A stretch of DNA of 64,000 nucleotides from a gamma proteobacterium HTCC5015 (GTDB lineage Bacteria > Pseudomonadota > Gammaproteobacteria > HTCC5015), in the NCBI GenBank assembly GCA_000155715.1, contig DS990599.1, forward strand, positions 107,846-171,845. Reading direction: 5' to 3'. Positions 5,221-40,650 of this stretch are shown here, one piece after another. How positions within the stretch are numbered: position 1 is the first letter of the stretch; every line of letters begins with the position of its first letter. A program made the position numbers and the translations under genes. The notes beneath the pieces were generated by a model. The model was not told where the DNA came from. It searched no databases and saw only the letters and a list, made by a program, of their open reading frames with translations.

Positions 5221-6882
5221 CTATTTTTTAGCCGATTCAGCTTCAAGCTGACGCGTAATCCACCACTGCTGAATAATCGATAAGGTGTTGTTGGTCACCC
5301 AGTAAAGAACGAGACCCGAGGGGAAAAAGGCGAAGAATGCCGTAAACACGACCGGCATCATCATAAACACTTTGGCCTGCATTGGATCGGGAGGCGTTGG
5401 GTTCAGTTTTTGCTGTAGATACATGGTGAGACCCATGATCAAAGGCAAAACATAAAAGGGATCTTTTGTTGATAAATCGTTGATCCAAAGAATAAAAGGC
5501 GCTTGGCGCAGCTCAACGGATTCGAGCAGCGCCCAGTAAAGCGCAATAAATACCGGGATTTGAATCAACATCGGCAGGCAGCTACCCACGGGGTTGATCT
5601 TCTCGGTTTTATAGAGCTTCATCATCTCTTGGGACAGACGCTGTCGATCGTCGGAGTAGCGCTCGCGAATTTGCTGCAACTTAGGCGTCACCTGGCGCAT
5701 TTTCGCCATGGAGCGATAGCTCGCCTGAGAGAGCGGGAAGAACAACAATTTGATGATGGCGGTCAGAACAATAATCGACCAGCCCCAGTTGCCAATAAAA
5801 CCATGTAACCAAGACAAAAGATGGAAGAGGGGTTTAGAAAGAACCGTTAAAAAGCCGTAGTCGACGGTTAGATCCAGGCCCTCGGCCACTTCTTCTAGGC
5901 GATCTTGAAGTTTCGGTCCGACAAACACTTGTGTCGTCCGACTTGCCGATTCGCCCGCGGGCACAGCAATTTCAGGCGAGGTCATGCCCAAAATATAGCG
6001 CTTGCCCTCCGCTTTACTAACGCCTCGGCTGTAGTAGTGATTCGCCGTCTCTTTAGGCGGCACGAGAGCCGTCAAGAAGTAGTGTTGAATCATCGCCGCC
6101 CAGCCGTGATCAAAACTCTGGCTGAGTGGAGACTCTTCTAACTCGTCGTAATCCAGTTTTTGGTAGCGATCTTCTTGGTTGTAGATAACGCCACCGGTGT
6201 AGGTCACCAAAAAGGGAGAACTGCTGTCGTCAAACTCCGCGCGCTGCAACTGGCGATACTGGTGACCCGACCAGTTTTGCGGTGTCTGGTTATCAATTTC
6301 AAAGCTTAAATCAAACAGGTAGCTGCCTTTGTAAAAGGTATAGCGCTTGGTCACGCGCAGACCATCCTGCTCCCATACGAGAGGGACTGTGACCGTATCC
6401 TTGGCCCCCAATTGATATTCCGTTTTTTCACTGCGATAAACCGCATGGTGGTCGGGAGCAGGGACACCGGCATTGCCCAACAAGCCGGACTGCACACTGA
6501 AAAATCGTTGGGGTTGTGAACTCTGAAGTTTAACCAGCGTTTCCTCGCCCAACTCTGTCGAGTACTGCAACAGCTGCGATTCCACCACATTACCGCCCCG
6601 CGTATTGATGGCGATGTCTAAAACATCTGTCTTAACGCGGATGCTTTGATTTTCAACCTGTGTTTCCGCCGCAGTATCAGCCGTCGTGGAGCTGTTCTCA
6701 CTGACGGGTCTCGAGGGCAAGTCTTTCGCAGCTTGAGGGTTGGGCGTCGTCACCGATGAACTGGCCGATTCCGTTTGAGTGACAGCCGCTTTCTGGTCGG
6801 CGTAGTCGTCTTGCCACTGGCCGTAGATCATGGCGCCCACGAGAGCGAGAGAGATCAAAAGAAAAATACGCAAATTATCCAC
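5221..6882 (-). CDS. yidC: Membrane protein insertase YidC
   Basis: Inner-membrane insertase of the Oxa1/YidC family, 553 residues. An N-terminal membrane anchor (NLRIFLLISLALVGAMIYGQW) is followed by the large periplasmic beta-sandwich domain seen in Gram-negative YidC. The C-terminal Oxa1 core has five membrane segments, including the FIGNWGWSIIVLTAIIKLLF region and the NPVGSCLPMLIQIPVF block. It starts at GTG and overlaps the end of yidD by 8 bp. It acts alone or with SecYEG to insert membrane proteins. Confidence 0.97.
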   Translation of the reverse strand: MDNLRIFLLISLALVGAMIYGQWQDDYADQKAAVTQTESASSSVTTPNPQAAKDLPSRPVSENSSTTADTAAETQVENQSIRVKTDVLDIAINTRGGNVVESQLLQYSTELGEETLVKLQSSQPQRFFSVQSGLLGNAGVPAPDHHAVYRSEKTEYQLGAKDTVTVPLVWEQDGLRVTKRYTFYKGSYLFDLSFEIDNQTPQNWSGHQYRQLQRAEFDDSSSPFLVTYTGGVIYNQEDRYQKLDYDELEESPLSQSFDHGWAAMIQHYFLTALVPPKETANHYYSRGVSKAEGKRYILGMTSPEIAVPAGESASRTTQVFVGPKLQDRLEEVAEGLDLTVDYGFLTVLSKPLFHLLSWLHGFIGNWGWSIIVLTAIIKLLFFPLSQASYRSMAKMRQVTPKLQQIRERYSDDRQRLSQEMMKLYKTEKINPVGSCLPMLIQIPVFIALYWALLESVELRQAPFILWINDLSTKDPFYVLPLIMGLTMYLQQKLNPTPPDPMQAKVFMMMPVVFTAFFAFFPSGLVLYWVTNNTLSIIQQWWITRQLEAESAKK

Positions 6883-35478: not shown

Positions 35479-35555
35479 TGGTCGGAGTAGCAGGATTCGA
35501 ACCTGCGACCTCTGCCTCCCGAAGGCAGCGCTCTACCAAGCTGAGCTATACTCCG
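35479..35555 (-). tRNA. tRNA-Pro (anticodon CGG)
   Basis: A 77 nt cloverleaf on the minus strand. The acceptor stem is CGGAGTA/TACTCCG, the D arm contains AGCTCAGCTTGGTAGAGC, and the anticodon stem-loop is CTGCC-TTCGGGA-GGCAG, giving CGG. The T arm has GGTTCGAATCC. The 3' CCA is encoded (35479-35481). It borders the accessory region on its 5' side. Confidence 0.95.
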
Positions 35556-35800: not shown

Positions 35801-37123
35801 TCAGGCAAAATCTTTCAGCCTGAGATGACCCTCTATTGAATGGGCAAGCGTTTTCGGTACGTCATGCGCTTTAGCCAATTGCGGCCACTGAGACACCGCG
35901 TTAATCACATCATCAATAATGGTATCAATTTCGTTGCGCTCTACCCGTGGAAGCTGAGCGTCTGCCAGCGCGTAAAAATCGTCGCGAGTATGGCCACTGC
36001 GCTTGCCATTTAAAGACATCCAGTGCTGCTCTACCCAAGGGTTTCCAGGCTTGTAGCTAAAGGCAACGTCGTAAGCCGGGCTCAACCGCCATTGCTTGTC
36101 CTCCAGCATGAAACCAAAGTTCTTGGAGTGATCATCGTGGTTCGTTGCTACGTGGTTAAAGACCATACGGCGAAACAAGTCTATGGCGTCCGCCCGTGGC
36201 AACCTTAGTCGTCGTGCAACCTGAAATAGCTCTTCATAAGAAAACGCACCAATGTCGTGATAGTTCACGTGCTTAATGGCCGTAAGCGTTTGAATATGCA
36301 TTTTTTCATTGCCTATTCTGTCAAAGCGCTTGGTCACAAAATGGCGCCGGTTGCCTTCATCCAGCAGGTGGCATGGCATCATATGAATGCCGGCTTGCGT
36401 GGCCATTAAGTAATACACATACTCCATAGCCCCGTAACCTAACGGGTCGCCAAAGGTTTGCTGAGAAGGGTCGCGCTCCTTTACGCCGTCAAACTTCAGC
36501 AGATAATGCTCAAACCCTTCGGGCACAAGTCCCTGGCCAGAACGAACCTGGCTGAAGTCCTTATTAAATGCCAATACCGCTTTGGGTCTTGCCCCACCGG
36601 CGCTGGTGCCAACCGCTAATAAGGCTTGCATCATTTCTTTATCTGCCGCGTCGTCAAAGTGCGTGCGTTGACGAAAGCCCTTCCGCGCATCGAGCACTTC
36701 CTGCGCTAATTTCATTAAACCCTCAAGCTCAATGTCTTTATTTTTGGCGTTGGTTTGATTCTTACGTGCAGGACGATACTCAAGAGCGCCCATGCCCCGC
36801 TCGCCGGTGTATTGGAGTCGTTCAAGCGGGTTCAGAGGTTCTGTGCGACCGGGCTGTTGCGCAATCCATTGGTTCAGCACCGCATTACCGAAGTCATCGG
36901 GCAGAGAGTCTGCCAGCATGCCCGGCAAACCTCTGAAGGTATCCCAATTTAATCCCGGGAAGGCGTAAATTCGCCCCTTCTCGGCGGGCATGGTTAAAGG
37001 CGCAAGCGGAATGTTTTTTTCGACAAATTCAGATAAGTACTCGAACCGCGCAGCCGTGTCGCCTTTGTTATAACTTAAGGCACCAACAGGCTCACCTTTG
37101 TAGCGAACTTCAATGGTATTCAT
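35801..37123 (-). CDS. hipA: HipA-family serine/threonine kinase toxin
   Basis: 440 residues. The N-terminal HipA_N-type domain (GALSYNKGD, GMLADSLPDDFGNAVLNQW) is followed by a HipA_C kinase domain. That domain has a nucleotide-binding loop region (SAGGARPKAVLAF), the FVTKRFDR strand, and the catalytic stretch NHVATNHDDHSKNFGF (Asp and Asn/Lys of the active site). The DVAFSY block follows. HipA toxins phosphorylate aminoacyl-tRNA synthetases. I use the ATG at 37123, which overlaps the hipB stop (TGATG). It lies beside an integron cassette array, but no attC was found after it. Confidence 0.9.
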   Translation of the reverse strand: MNTIEVRYKGEPVGALSYNKGDTAARFEYLSEFVEKNIPLAPLTMPAEKGRIYAFPGLNWDTFRGLPGMLADSLPDDFGNAVLNQWIAQQPGRTEPLNPLERLQYTGERGMGALEYRPARKNQTNAKNKDIELEGLMKLAQEVLDARKGFRQRTHFDDAADKEMMQALLAVGTSAGGARPKAVLAFNKDFSQVRSGQGLVPEGFEHYLLKFDGVKERDPSQQTFGDPLGYGAMEYVYYLMATQAGIHMMPCHLLDEGNRRHFVTKRFDRIGNEKMHIQTLTAIKHVNYHDIGAFSYEELFQVARRLRLPRADAIDLFRRMVFNHVATNHDDHSKNFGFMLEDKQWRLSPAYDVAFSYKPGNPWVEQHWMSLNGKRSGHTRDDFYALADAQLPRVERNEIDTIIDDVINAVSQWPQLAKAHDVPKTLAHSIEGHLRLKDFA

Positions 37124-37443
37124 CACCAGTCCAGCGCCTCATTGTCAGCAGGCTTCACACGCGTTTTACCGCTCGCCCGTTTTTTCTGTTTGGTGCTACT
37201 TTTGAGCAGTTGCACAGGAGAAACGCCCTCGTCTGGGAATGCGGCCAGTAAGTTGTCGATATGACCCAAAGCCTGAAGAATAGCGACATAGGTCGGTAAG
37301 GTGCTTTTACCACCCTCCGCAGATTTAACGGCGTTTAGTGAGACCTTCGCCAAGGTCGCTAAGTCCTCCTGAGTTAAGTCCTGATTCAAGCGATACTGCC
37401 TGACTCGCTGACCAATAATTGCTGAAACGCGCTCAGAGTCCAT
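37123..37443 (-). CDS. hipB: HipB-family antitoxin, XRE-type regulator
   Basis: 106 residues with an XRE helix-turn-helix (RVRQYRLNQDLTQEDLATLAK, then VSLNAVKSAEGGKSTLPTYV) and a basic C-terminal tail (KQKKRASGKTRVK). It is predicted to neutralise HipA and repress the operon. It is translationally coupled to hipA. Confidence 0.9.
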   Translation of the reverse strand: MDSERVSAIIGQRVRQYRLNQDLTQEDLATLAKVSLNAVKSAEGGKSTLPTYVAILQALGHIDNLLAAFPDEGVSPVQLLKSSTKQKKRASGKTRVKPADNEALDW

Positions 37444-37618: not shown

Positions 37619-37679
37619 AGCTAACGCTAAGCTAAGCGGCGCAGCTTTGCTGCGTCCTTACTTGAGCGATTTGTTATAT
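37619..37679 (-). other. attC site 5 (after SUKH cassette)
   Basis: 61 bp. The outer ends are AGCTAAC and GTTATAT, with arms CTAAGCTAAGCGGCGCAG and CTGCGTCCTTACTTGAGCG around a short loop. It is very like attC site 2. It closes the last cassette of the array, in minus-strand reading. Confidence 0.85.
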
Positions 37680-37681
37680 TT

Positions 37682-38050
37682 TTATTCTTGCTCACTGAGG
37701 TACTTCGCAATGAACTCTTCAAGGGTATTTGCATAAAGGTTGCATTCCATTTTTTCATGATCAGAGAACCCTAAGGAAAATTCCTTTGCGTCTGGGGTAA
37801 TCACGTAATAATCACCGCAACCATTTTTACCGATAATTAAATAACGCTCAGGCCACGTTTCACCAAAGTAACCGTTCTCTCTAACATCAAGATTTTCCTC
37901 AATGATTTCATCGGGGTCATCAAGCAAACCAAAATCAGGAGCATCAGAACCCAATAATTCGGAGGGGTACTTAGTAACCACTTCCACATAACACGCTGGG
38001 AAATTCAGCCCGGTTTCTTTTTCAATTCTCTCAATGTCATTCCGTGTCAT
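37682..38050 (-). CDS. SMI1/KNR4 (SUKH) family protein, cassette E
   Basis: 122 residues. It begins with the SUKH pattern ERIEKETGLNFPACYVEVV. It continues with LLDDPDEIIEENL and ERYLIIGKNGCGDYYVITPD, ending in a charged helix (NTLEEFIAKYLSEQE). SUKH proteins often serve as immunity proteins against secreted nuclease toxins. No toxin partner is next to it, so it may be an orphan immunity gene. It fills one integron cassette between attC 4 and attC 5. Confidence 0.8.
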   Translation of the reverse strand: MTRNDIERIEKETGLNFPACYVEVVTKYPSELLGSDAPDFGLLDDPDEIIEENLDVRENGYFGETWPERYLIIGKNGCGDYYVITPDAKEFSLGFSDHEKMECNLYANTLEEFIAKYLSEQE

Positions 38051-38065
38051 GGGATCACTCTGAAA

Positions 38066-38137
38066 ATATAACGCCTACAGCAGAGGCAAAAATGGAGCGC
38101 AGCGGAATTTTTGTCCTGCTGGCTGTACTTGTTAGAG
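38066..38137 (-). other. attC site 4
   Basis: 72 bp, with ends ATATAAC and GTTAGAG. The arms include TACAGC/GCTGTA and CAAAAAT/ATTTTTG. Its ATATAAC end matches the GTTATAT end of attC 5, as expected for a cassette flanked by recombination junctions. Confidence 0.75.
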
Positions 38138-38140
38138 CTT

Positions 38141-38884
38141 TTACTCAAATACGACACCTACTAAATCTTCAATGAAGCTACTCGCCTTTTTGGGGCCGAT
38201 TTTATATTTTCCGGGATGCCCGCATTTATTTCTTAGATTTAAGCAATCTTCCAAAACTGATCTTTGATTCTTATCAAATAAACCTAACTCCTGAGATGCT
38301 AGAATAAGTGTAGACTCTTTAACCAAAACCAGATCATCAACTTTTTTGACCGGCTTGGCTTTCGGATCGAATTTAGCGATAGCCGGATTGACATTATTTA
38401 CACCACATGAAAACACATCGTCTCTTATCTTTTTAACTGCTCCAGACCACAAAAAAACGATACATGCCCGTAGTGCATTTACCTGAAGGCATTTGACTGC
38501 CTCGCTCAGGTAATCACAAACATCTTTATCGCTAATTGTGGAAATTAAGACTTCCAGAGACGAAACATCGTTTTCGATTTCTATATCATTTGCCGGGAGT
38601 TCGAGTAGTTCACGGACATATGCTTCGCCACTATTAGTGATAGACCACAAAAAACGGTTGCCCTCTTTCCCAATAGTGTCAACATATGGTGCTGACTGTG
38701 ACAGAGTAGCGGCCAAATTTAATTTTGCAGCTCGTGGAATCTTCGCCCTTTTTAAAAGCGCCCTCAAGCCTTCGACCGTGAGAGACTCGCCGGATTGATA
38801 GCGCTGATTAAAATACATCGCAGCAAGGCATATGTTTTTAATGCCTTTTGATTTAATCGGGTGCAAGAATTCTACTATTGTCAC
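38141..38884 (-). CDS. HEPN-like protein of a two-gene cassette (D2)
   Basis: 247 residues, mostly helical. The N-terminus looks like a winged-helix or adaptor part (LAAMYFNQRYQSGESLTVEGL). The C-terminus has LRNKCGHPGKYKIGPKKAS, an RX4H (R-NKCG-H) motif near residue 220 preceded by a long helical region. That is the active-site pattern of HEPN ribonucleases. It starts at GTG with AAGGA eight bases upstream, 3 bp after the partner gene. HEPN proteins are common in toxin-antitoxin and anti-phage systems. The family is not recognised and activity is inferred from the motif only. Confidence 0.6.
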   Translation of the reverse strand: MTIVEFLHPIKSKGIKNICLAAMYFNQRYQSGESLTVEGLRALLKRAKIPRAAKLNLAATLSQSAPYVDTIGKEGNRFLWSITNSGEAYVRELLELPANDIEIENDVSSLEVLISTISDKDVCDYLSEAVKCLQVNALRACIVFLWSGAVKKIRDDVFSCGVNNVNPAIAKFDPKAKPVKKVDDLVLVKESTLILASQELGLFDKNQRSVLEDCLNLRNKCGHPGKYKIGPKKASSFIEDLVGVVFE

Positions 38885-38887
38885 TTA

Positions 38888-39385
38888 CTAATCCTTTGGT
38901 GCGGGTTTGTTTCCTTTTGTTACGCTGTAAGTGCTCTTAAGGTATAACTCGCCGCTTACTGTCAATTTCCAGCCTTTGCCCTGCTGATTAAATAGGCCTT
39001 TACCTTTATCTTTAGCCTGACGCATCGTATTGTCTGCGCGACTAGGGATAACAAGACCACAAGCGTCACCAAGCTCTTTTATCTCTTTGGCCTGGATTGG
39101 GTAGGCTCCGTATTGAGAATATAGCCACGCAACTAATAGCATGACATTGTCTTTTGGTTTGTCGTGCTCGAAGCCGCTGATAAATGACCCTAAATCAGTT
39201 GTATCAACTTCTTCTTTCGTTTCCTCTTTTTCGGTTTTGGGATTTTTGGCCGTCTTTGCAACCGGGATATTGTCAAACCAATAGGGAGTCATTATCTCGA
39301 AAGCCGCGCCCCGAATTGCAGGATCTAATTTGGTGATGAGTTCATTCATCTCCAGCAAGTTTTTTTGAACTTCGTCTTTATCCAT
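38888..39385 (-). CDS. Unknown partner protein of the two-gene cassette (D1)
   Basis: 165 residues with a lysine/glutamate-rich stretch (KNPKTEKEETKEEVDTT) in the middle. The C-terminal half resembles a winged helix, with LLVAWLYSQYGAYPIQAKEI, DNTMRQAKDKG and GWKLTVSGELYLKS. It could bind DNA or act as antitoxin or regulator for the HEPN-like protein downstream. It starts at ATG with GAGG seven bases upstream. I do not recognise a named family. It shares a cassette with the HEPN-like gene. Confidence 0.6.
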   Translation of the reverse strand: MDKDEVQKNLLEMNELITKLDPAIRGAAFEIMTPYWFDNIPVAKTAKNPKTEKEETKEEVDTTDLGSFISGFEHDKPKDNVMLLVAWLYSQYGAYPIQAKEIKELGDACGLVIPSRADNTMRQAKDKGKGLFNQQGKGWKLTVSGELYLKSTYSVTKGNKPAPKD

Positions 39386-39417
39386 GTTCTACCTCATCGG
39401 TTTGTTTTATTTGATAG

Positions 39418-39507
39418 CTCTAACGCCTGCGGTAACCGGCGCCGTAGCGCAGCGGAGGGCACCAAAAGCGCCACGCTTTTGGCGTCCGGTTGACTGCCTG
39501 GTTAGGC
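39418..39507 (-). other. attC site 3
   Basis: 90 bp. The GTTAGGC end (39501-39507) is perfect, and the CTCTAAC end has a one-base deviation. Arms ACCGG/CCGGT and CCAAAAGCG/GCTTTTGG form the long central hairpin. Confidence 0.8.
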
Positions 39508-39798
39508 GCCGTAGCTGTTGGTACAGAACTCATCTCTGCTCACGTATATCTTGAATATCACTTCAAAATTATTGGCCCATTTGAGCAGCACGTCCCGCAA
39601 CTCATTTTTTATCCCATCTGTCGCTTTCAGGTTATACAGCCAGATTCCAATAGTCTTTTCTCGGGTTGGCAAATCCTCACAATCAATACTGAATTTGCGC
39701 CCCCCTTTCTCGACCGACAAGGCATGACAGTACATATGAGCATTCCGATTGAACGAAATCTCCCATCCATCAACATTGTCTTGGACTGCACTATTCAT
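39502..39798 (-). CDS. Unknown small cassette protein C
   Basis: 98 residues, no signal peptide. It is a soluble alpha/beta-looking protein with GWEISFNRNAHMYCHAL, KFSIDCEDLPTREKTIGIW and KWANNFEVIFKIYV. It ends NSYGA, partly encoded by the attC. The family is not recognised; it fills one integron cassette. Confidence 0.6.
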   Translation of the reverse strand: MNSAVQDNVDGWEISFNRNAHMYCHALSVEKGGRKFSIDCEDLPTREKTIGIWLYNLKATDGIKNELRDVLLKWANNFEVIFKIYVSRDEFCTNSYGA

Positions 39799-39814: not shown

Positions 39815-39874
39815 GCCTAACGCCAAGCTAAGCGGCGCCGTTTTCGGCGTCCTTGCTTGAGCGCCTTGTTAAAT
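39815..39874 (-). other. attC site 2
   Basis: 60 bp, a classic 59-base element. The outer ends are GCCTAAC and GTTAAAT, with arms CCAAGCTAAGCGGCGCCG and CGGCGTCCTTGCTTGAGCG. Confidence 0.9.
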
Positions 39875-40259
39875 TTTCGCGGTAAAGGATAAATACTGCC
39901 ACATATAAGGCAATAGAATACGCCACGCCTACACTAACTATATCTATAGCGCGTTTCCACGCTAACCAACCTGTATTTCCAAAAACCCCTGGTTTATTTA
40001 GAGGCCAAGTAAGTTGATTAAAGTGCATGTATGCCCAATAGGTAACTAAAATCAAAGCAAAATGCTTGGCGTAGTTTTTATTTTTATATGCAAGAATACC
40101 CGTAAGTAGCAGCCCCCAATAAACTCCGTGATCAAACACCATCCCTAAATATAAAGGAAAATCGCCATCTGCTAAAAAACCAGTAATGTAGTGAAGAAGA
40201 ATATTTATCCCCTCAAAGAAACCAAACGAAGCAATAACAACTGAAGCAATAGCTTTCAT
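39828..40259 (-). CDS. Small multi-pass membrane protein, cassette B
   Basis: 143 residues with about four membrane segments (IASVVIASFGFFEGINILL; YWGLLLTGILAY; HFALILVTYWAYMHF; IVSVGVAYSIALYVAVFIL). The reading frame passes through the start of attC 2, so the last dozen residues (RRSSKDAENGAA) are encoded by recombination-site DNA. The function is unknown. AGAGGA precedes the ATG. Confidence 0.65.
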   Translation of the reverse strand: MKAIASVVIASFGFFEGINILLHYITGFLADGDFPLYLGMVFDHGVYWGLLLTGILAYKNKNYAKHFALILVTYWAYMHFNQLTWPLNKPGVFGNTGWLAWKRAIDIVSVGVAYSIALYVAVFILYRENLTRRSSKDAENGAA

Positions 40260-40271
40260 ATATCCTCTGAA

Positions 40272-40347
40272 ATTTAACGCCCAAAGCAGCGGCCGAGCGA
40301 AGCGAGGTCCAGCCCCGTAGGGGCGAGGCTGCCTTTGCTTGTTAAGT
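40272..40347 (-). other. attC site 1
   Basis: 76 bp. Its ends are ATTTAAC and GTTAAGT. Arms include CAAAGCAG/CTGCCTTTG and a GC-rich inner stem. The GTTAAGT end recurs as ACTTAAC at 40657-40663, bounding the first cassette. Confidence 0.85.
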
Positions 40348-40650
40348 GTTTTGCTCTGAGCATATTTCTTCCTTTATTGACCCGGAGACATTTACCCAAA
40401 TTGGGCTTGTTGAAAGTCTAAGTGAAAGCCCCAATCCCGACGCAGCTACCGCAACAATATGCTTATACCAGTCCGCGTGGCTCCACTTTCTTGGTGCCGG
40501 AGCTTTGAATGCCTTGCGCTCGCTATCCCAGTACACCTCGGCAGCCTCCCGATATATGTGTTGATAAATCGGTTTTCCACCGCTGGCGAGTACGAGAAGC
40601 ATTTCTCCGCTCTCCAGTATTTCAACCTTGGATATTTCTTCGATTTCCAT
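40342..40650 (-). CDS. Unknown integron-cassette protein A
   Basis: 102 residues: EISKVEILESGEMLLVLASG, then GKPIYQHIYREAAEVYWD and KWSHADWYKHIVAV. It resembles uncharacterised proteins often found in integron cassettes. The start codon lies only 6 bp from the cassette boundary, so there is no ribosome-binding site within the cassette. Its stop overlaps attC 1. The function is unknown. Confidence 0.65.
   Translation of the reverse strand: MEIEEISKVEILESGEMLLVLASGGKPIYQHIYREAAEVYWDSERKAFKAPAPRKWSHADWYKHIVAVAASGLGLSLRLSTSPIWVNVSGSIKEEICSEQNT

Follow-up and report, generated by a model that had tools for sequence, protein, structure and literature searches.

The integron cassette array of the gamma proteobacterium HTCC5015 carries a cassette of two tightly coupled genes, here called A and B, which encode (i) a protein with a winged helix (wHTH) followed by a domain assigned by homology to the HEPN superfamily, of the subtype of the anti-phage protein PD-T7-3 (protein B); and (ii) a partner in which a charged linker precedes a second wHTH (protein A). 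We lean towards the view that the pair is a mobile two-protein anti-phage module of the abortive-infection type. In this text, the window is the whole stretch of DNA that was analysed (64,000 nucleotides), and related loci are designated by an L and a number.

Cassette architecture and neighbourhood

Gene A (39385-38888, minus strand) has an ATG start and encodes 165 aa, while gene B (38884-38141, minus strand) has a GTG start and encodes 247 aa. Both genes had been described as lying 3 bp apart in one cassette, and this was confirmed: the stop of A and the start of B are separated by 3 nt on the same strand, attC sites lie on both sides, and the attC scan of the pair detected no attC-like site between A and B. 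The attC of the cassette (38066-38137, 72 nt, minus strand) and that of the preceding cassette, which forms the upstream boundary (39418-39507, minus strand), were both located by the scan for attC-like sites. In BLASTN comparisons, the former matches a Pseudoalteromonas plasmid site with 85% identity, and the latter is 81% identical to the attC that separates two fos cassettes of a class 1 integron on pGES-GZ, beside intI1 and blaGES-5; integron-bearing plasmids carry a site resembling 39418-39507. The two open reading frames (ORFs) are bounded by attC sites of one orientation and, since these sites bracket the pair and are similar to known attC, A and B constitute one two-gene cassette, in agreement with the earlier proposal that they are moved by integrons.

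Altogether, attC-like sites were recognised on the minus strand at 40272-40347, 39815-39874, 39418-39507, 38066-38137 and 37619-37679, against a background outside the array of 14 candidates scoring at least 8 per 115,000 strand-bases. A relaxed pattern was used, because a strict RYYYAAC/GTTRRRY scan loses some attC sites (R' can end in GTTATAT). The integrase gene intI is found on a different contig of the assembly (C22) and does not adjoin the array, which therefore appears to be without an integrase of its own here; an adjacent integrase is not needed for cassette status. In the Vibrio cholerae array, cassettes hold one and occasionally more ORFs (PMC12409362). Thus, a two-ORF cassette, which the preliminary description had called unusual, is uncommon though precedented.

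The leader between the attC cleavage core and the ATG of A (39386-39423, minus strand, 38 nt) contains a ribosome-binding-like GAGGTAG, and no sigma-70-like promoter was found in it. Among the cassettes with the pair, leaders before A measure about 30-55 nt. A promoter of the cassette's own would hardly fit in them, as is the case where transcription comes from the promoter of the array.

The genes that flank the pair in the window correspond to ordinary cassettes and not to a defence island. The next cassette encodes a protein of the SUKH-1 (SMI1/KNR4) family (37682-38050, minus strand, own attC at 37619-37679), a family known for immunity proteins. On the other side, the ORF list and the family scan gave an ORF of 98 aa without family in the preceding cassette (39502-39798, minus strand), followed by a hydrophobic protein of 143 aa (39828-40259, minus strand, attC-like site 39815-39874) and a member of the integron family Hfx_Cass5 (40342-40650, minus strand, attC-like site 40272-40347). 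A HipB/HipA-type pair is located at the array end (35801-37443), near a tRNA-Pro gene (35479-35555).

Proteins B and A and their known counterparts

Protein B consists of a wHTH (residues 3-93) and a HEPN domain (about residues 105-247). Structure prediction bore out the winged helices of both proteins: with AlphaFold, the N-terminal 93 residues of B were modelled as a winged helix with pLDDT mostly 83-90. This domain of B had been overlooked in the preliminary description. The C-terminal half of B was predicted as all-helical with pLDDT below 50, a model that is unreliable because the alignment held only five sequences; hence, the HEPN fold of B rests on sequence homology. In this low-confidence model, a helix (205-220) ends at the presumed active-site motif. 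When the B model was compared by Foldseek, no HEPN protein appeared among the matches listed; there were only MarR-like and similar matches to the wHTH half, none of them significant. Matches of the B wHTH to the eS10 ribosomal protein (E about 0.5) were treated as generic winged-helix similarity. Weak DndF/DptF and DpnD hits were dropped for being short, sub-threshold and not common to the relatives.

The motif in question, R218-N-K-C-G-H223 (38216-38233, minus strand), was identified by alignment as the HEPN Rx4H active-site motif of B. Three of its residues, R218, N219 and H223 (R-N-x3-H), are invariant in 11 homologues with identity down to 20%, as are E128, R139, W146 and K189; E128 is an invariant acidic residue in the 11, with a placement relative to the active site that was not reliably modelled. 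R-N-x3-H is one of the classical catalytic motifs of HEPN proteins (Rx4-6H in PMC3710099). A profile made of 11 B proteins, with no Dandelion sequence among them, retrieved from the PDB 9wx2 ("Dandelion-hepn", E=1.8e-6) and 9wxf (Dandelion, E=1.4e-5), with RNKCGH aligned over RHLSAH, and no further match at E up to 1. Likewise, hhalign comparison of B with five PD-T7-3-like proteins gave a probability of 98.8% and a score of 114.7 (column-shuffle maximum 19.4). The early identification of R-NKCG-H as a HEPN motif is thereby sustained, both by the homology to the solved Dandelion-hepn structure and by the invariance of R-N-x3-H. Among Pfam, NCBIfam, PHROGs and PADLOC, library matches of B are confined to the HEPN part and to PD-T7-3/phrog_27609: phrog_27609 matches residues 108-246 (E=1.2e-9), and the PADLOC PD-T7-3 profile matches B proteins weakly, over profile positions 4-121 of 432 only. 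This link matters because PD-T7-3, which figures in a list of HEPN systems (PMC10952713), protected Escherichia coli against phages (PMC9519451). On this homology, the C-terminal domain of B belongs to the HEPN superfamily, and B is likely an RNA-cutting HEPN enzyme.

Protein A comprises a helical N-terminus (residues 3-36) that contains LDPAxR, a charged disordered linker (about residues 39-63) and a wHTH (residues 77-153). The charged linker and winged-helix-like half attributed to it earlier were both recovered: 44% of residues 39-63 are charged (D/E/K/R), and the wHTH was predicted with pLDDT about 83-91. No family match of A was obtained in Pfam, NCBIfam, PHROGs or PADLOC, and Foldseek with the A model gave nothing significant. 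Comparison of the wHTH of A with that of B by hhalign (92-94%, score 46.4; shuffle maximum 19.5) indicates that they are homologous.

Several known systems resemble the pair in part. PD-T7-3/Dandelion proteins (9wxf, 9wx2; PADLOC PDLC04108; phrog_27609) share with B the HEPN subtype, with a helix in which R-A-x2-V-x2-W is conserved and an R-x4-H-P motif, but they are single proteins of 430-480 aa with an N-terminal HEPN and a long C-terminal part, and lack both the wHTH and the A partner that characterise B, which has 247 aa. Since the conserved C-terminal region of the 430-480 aa protein is missing from B, it is not a PD-T7-3/Dandelion single-protein system. As read from their ORFs, PD-T7-3-like proteins adjoin a DNA methylase, a SIR2-like ORF and an HsdS subunit (L034:1-3195, L020 and L021), and the gene of a Dandelion-type HEPN protein of 323 aa immediately precedes one for a RAMP (type III CRISPR-like) protein (L036:4-1914). 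HEPN-MNT toxin-antitoxin systems (SO_3166-SO_3165 type, PMC4621449) likewise combine the gene of a HEPN toxin candidate with an adjacent partner gene, but their partner is a minimal nucleotidyltransferase, whereas A is a linker plus wHTH without a Pfam match. A HEPN protein encoded in an integron cassette has been reported (PDB 3jrt, PMC3710099); its report describes no winged helix or partner, whereas B has both, and the B profile did not retrieve 3jrt at E up to 10.

Closest in layout are pairs of the DUF4145 type, in which a linker-wHTH protein is likewise followed by a wHTH-HEPN protein, but with another HEPN subtype (Pfam DUF4145 for that of L003) and another N-terminus of the A-like protein. 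One such pair forms a second cassette-like unit beside the first in L003 (2731-4040; 190-aa linker-wHTH protein and 246-aa wHTH-DUF4145 protein); another, apparently of this type, was found with that portion of the B profile which covers the wHTH (L037:1090-2437; 203 aa and 242 aa). The wHTH parts of these pairs may be homologous to those of A and B, a relationship with weak support.

Relatives, pairing and selection

The search for related loci gave B relatives in a Nitrospirae MAG (L002, 86%), Terasakiispira (L003, 81%), Rhodanobacter (L004, 69%) and Hydrocarboniphaga (L005, 67%). In all four, A is directly upstream of B with a tight junction, as in the window; in L002, L003 and L005, inspection by eye, not formal scoring, showed B to be followed by an attC-like sequence and A to be preceded by a GTTAG core. 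Whole-genome searches of the class and the phylum added B at L011 (51%), L012 (29%), L013 (27%), L014 (32%) and L016 (20%), each with an A-type neighbour; in L012, the two genes are divergently arranged. The pair was also found on an Ochrobactrum plasmid (L023) and on a phage contig with tail, tail-fibre and endolysin genes (L025; B 49%). In the latter, the pair occupies the strand opposite to the phage genes and a strong 13-pair stem-loop, listed with a T-run on the opposite strand in the stem-loop scan, lies beyond B. Opposite-strand placement together with a stem-loop is usual for phage cargo genes, and the pair appears cargo-like in this phage.

Thus, B has an A-type neighbour at 12/12 loci (window, L002-L005, L011-L014, L016, L023 and L025). 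Conversely, an A-profile search of 369 genomes matched only those of the window and L011, both of which have B. The distribution of B is sporadic (about 1-2% of the genomes of the class), and phage and plasmid collections contain few relatives. Other candidates were set aside, namely L017, a short C-terminal HEPN-like fragment, and L018 and L035, which are longer single proteins.

Among the pairs, A ranges from 165 to 213 aa. In distant pairs, its N-terminus differs (with an IEFELEGS-like segment in L016 and in the second pair of L003) while the linker and the wHTH are kept. In the most distant ones, it is chiefly the size, the linker and the wHTH that mark a protein as A, profile scores being weak, so these proteins are only tentatively regarded as homologues of A.

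When the window is compared with its closest relative, L002, B has a pN of 0.07 and A one of 0.16, whereas pS is 0.80-0.91, with synonymous sites saturated. This contrast argues that neither ORF is a chance occurrence, that both are under strong purifying selection and that the association of A with B is old. Two copies are interrupted: B of L003 has a stop at codon 178 (5532-5534), and L011 has a frameshift in the A linker (about 2560) with B intact. These represent either decaying copies or assembly errors.

Proposed function and alternatives

In the reading that we favour, B would be a HEPN endoribonuclease that works without metal ions and is attached to a winged helix, and A would present the homologous domain at the end of a short N-terminal helical part and a flexible charged linker. 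The two proteins probably associate, plausibly through these wHTH domains. A may keep the HEPN dimer inactive, read an infection cue, or both, DNA being the obvious ligand of a wHTH. Upon infection, the RNase of B would be released or activated and would cleave RNA, stopping phage or host translation. The RNase activity of B, its complex with A, the role of A as inhibitor or sensor and the effect on the phage are inferred. This reading is supported by the HEPN homology to PD-T7-3, the invariance of R218, N219, H223 and E128, the wHTH homology of A and B, the constant pairing, the cargo-like position in the phage, the placement of single-protein relatives beside HsdS, DNA methylase, SIR2-like and RAMP proteins, and the short leaders, as in array-driven cassettes. 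Furthermore, integrons are known from the literature to store defence systems (PMC12409362). The ordinary cassettes around the pair, the poor model of the HEPN half and the weak profiles of distant A proteins count against it. The original suggestion of a toxin-antitoxin or anti-phage module is thus upheld only indirectly, through obligate pairing, the HEPN subtype of an anti-phage protein and phage carriage.

The main rival, which shares most steps with the defence reading and to which we give a lesser but real probability, is a classical type II toxin-antitoxin cassette in which B is the HEPN toxin and A a DNA-binding antitoxin that both counteracts B and represses its own operon, the system stabilising the array or element. 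The gene order (a small charged DNA-binding protein, then the toxin) and the tight coupling fit it. So does the region between the divergent A and B of L012, which holds a perfect 16-bp palindrome, CACATGAGCTCATGTG (1357-1372; 8/2000 shuffles), and a 10-bp one, ATGAATTCAT, centred 22 bp from the first; both lie within 1357-1391, share an ATGA..TCAT core and look like a candidate wHTH operator. Such operator-like palindromes were seen in L012 only. Against the rival stands the length of the cassette leaders, which hardly accommodates an evident promoter or operator of their own, the window leader having nothing promoter-like. Intact B beside frameshifted A in L011 is awkward for a strict antitoxin, unless the frameshift is an assembly error; moreover, A exceeds most type II antitoxins in size, and a simple toxin would not need a wHTH of its own.

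It is rather improbable that the two proteins serve regulation or housekeeping and have no role in conflict, for instance as a MarR/PadR-like regulator complex with HEPN as a mere binding or dimerisation fold. The presence of a wHTH in both proteins and the MarR-family regulators that head the non-significant Foldseek matches of B would suit such a pair, but the invariance of R218, N219 and H223 down to 20% identity, the PD-T7-3 subtype of the HEPN domain and a sporadic spread on integrons, phage and plasmid, typical of conflict systems, speak against it. As for two unrelated ORFs sharing a cassette by chance, integron cassettes can capture adjacent ORFs, but the pairing at every locus, the near-identical 3-nt junctions in close relatives, the divergent arrangement in L012 and the A-B wHTH homology make this highly unlikely.

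On a broader scale, and more speculatively than the defence reading itself, A and B might belong to a larger, so far unrecognised class of immune sensors with two proteins, a linker-wHTH adaptor and a wHTH-HEPN effector, and represent one of its branches. In such a class, the branches would have exchanged the N-termini of their adaptors as well as their HEPN subtypes (Dandelion-type, DUF4145-type), the paired winged helices would sense DNA and turn the RNase on, and integrons and phages would spread the systems.

The kind of HEPN enzyme is already known; the libraries searched contain neither the A nor the B family, nor the layout with paired wHTH domains, and prior testing of the exact pair is possible. 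The homology ties cassette genes unnamed in standard family libraries to an experimentally found anti-phage HEPN family. With two proteins encoded in 1.2 kb, the pair is a small system where an RNase may be under the direct control of a DNA-binding fold and, if the defence reading is true, this compact module would add to the increasing number of defence systems known from integrons.
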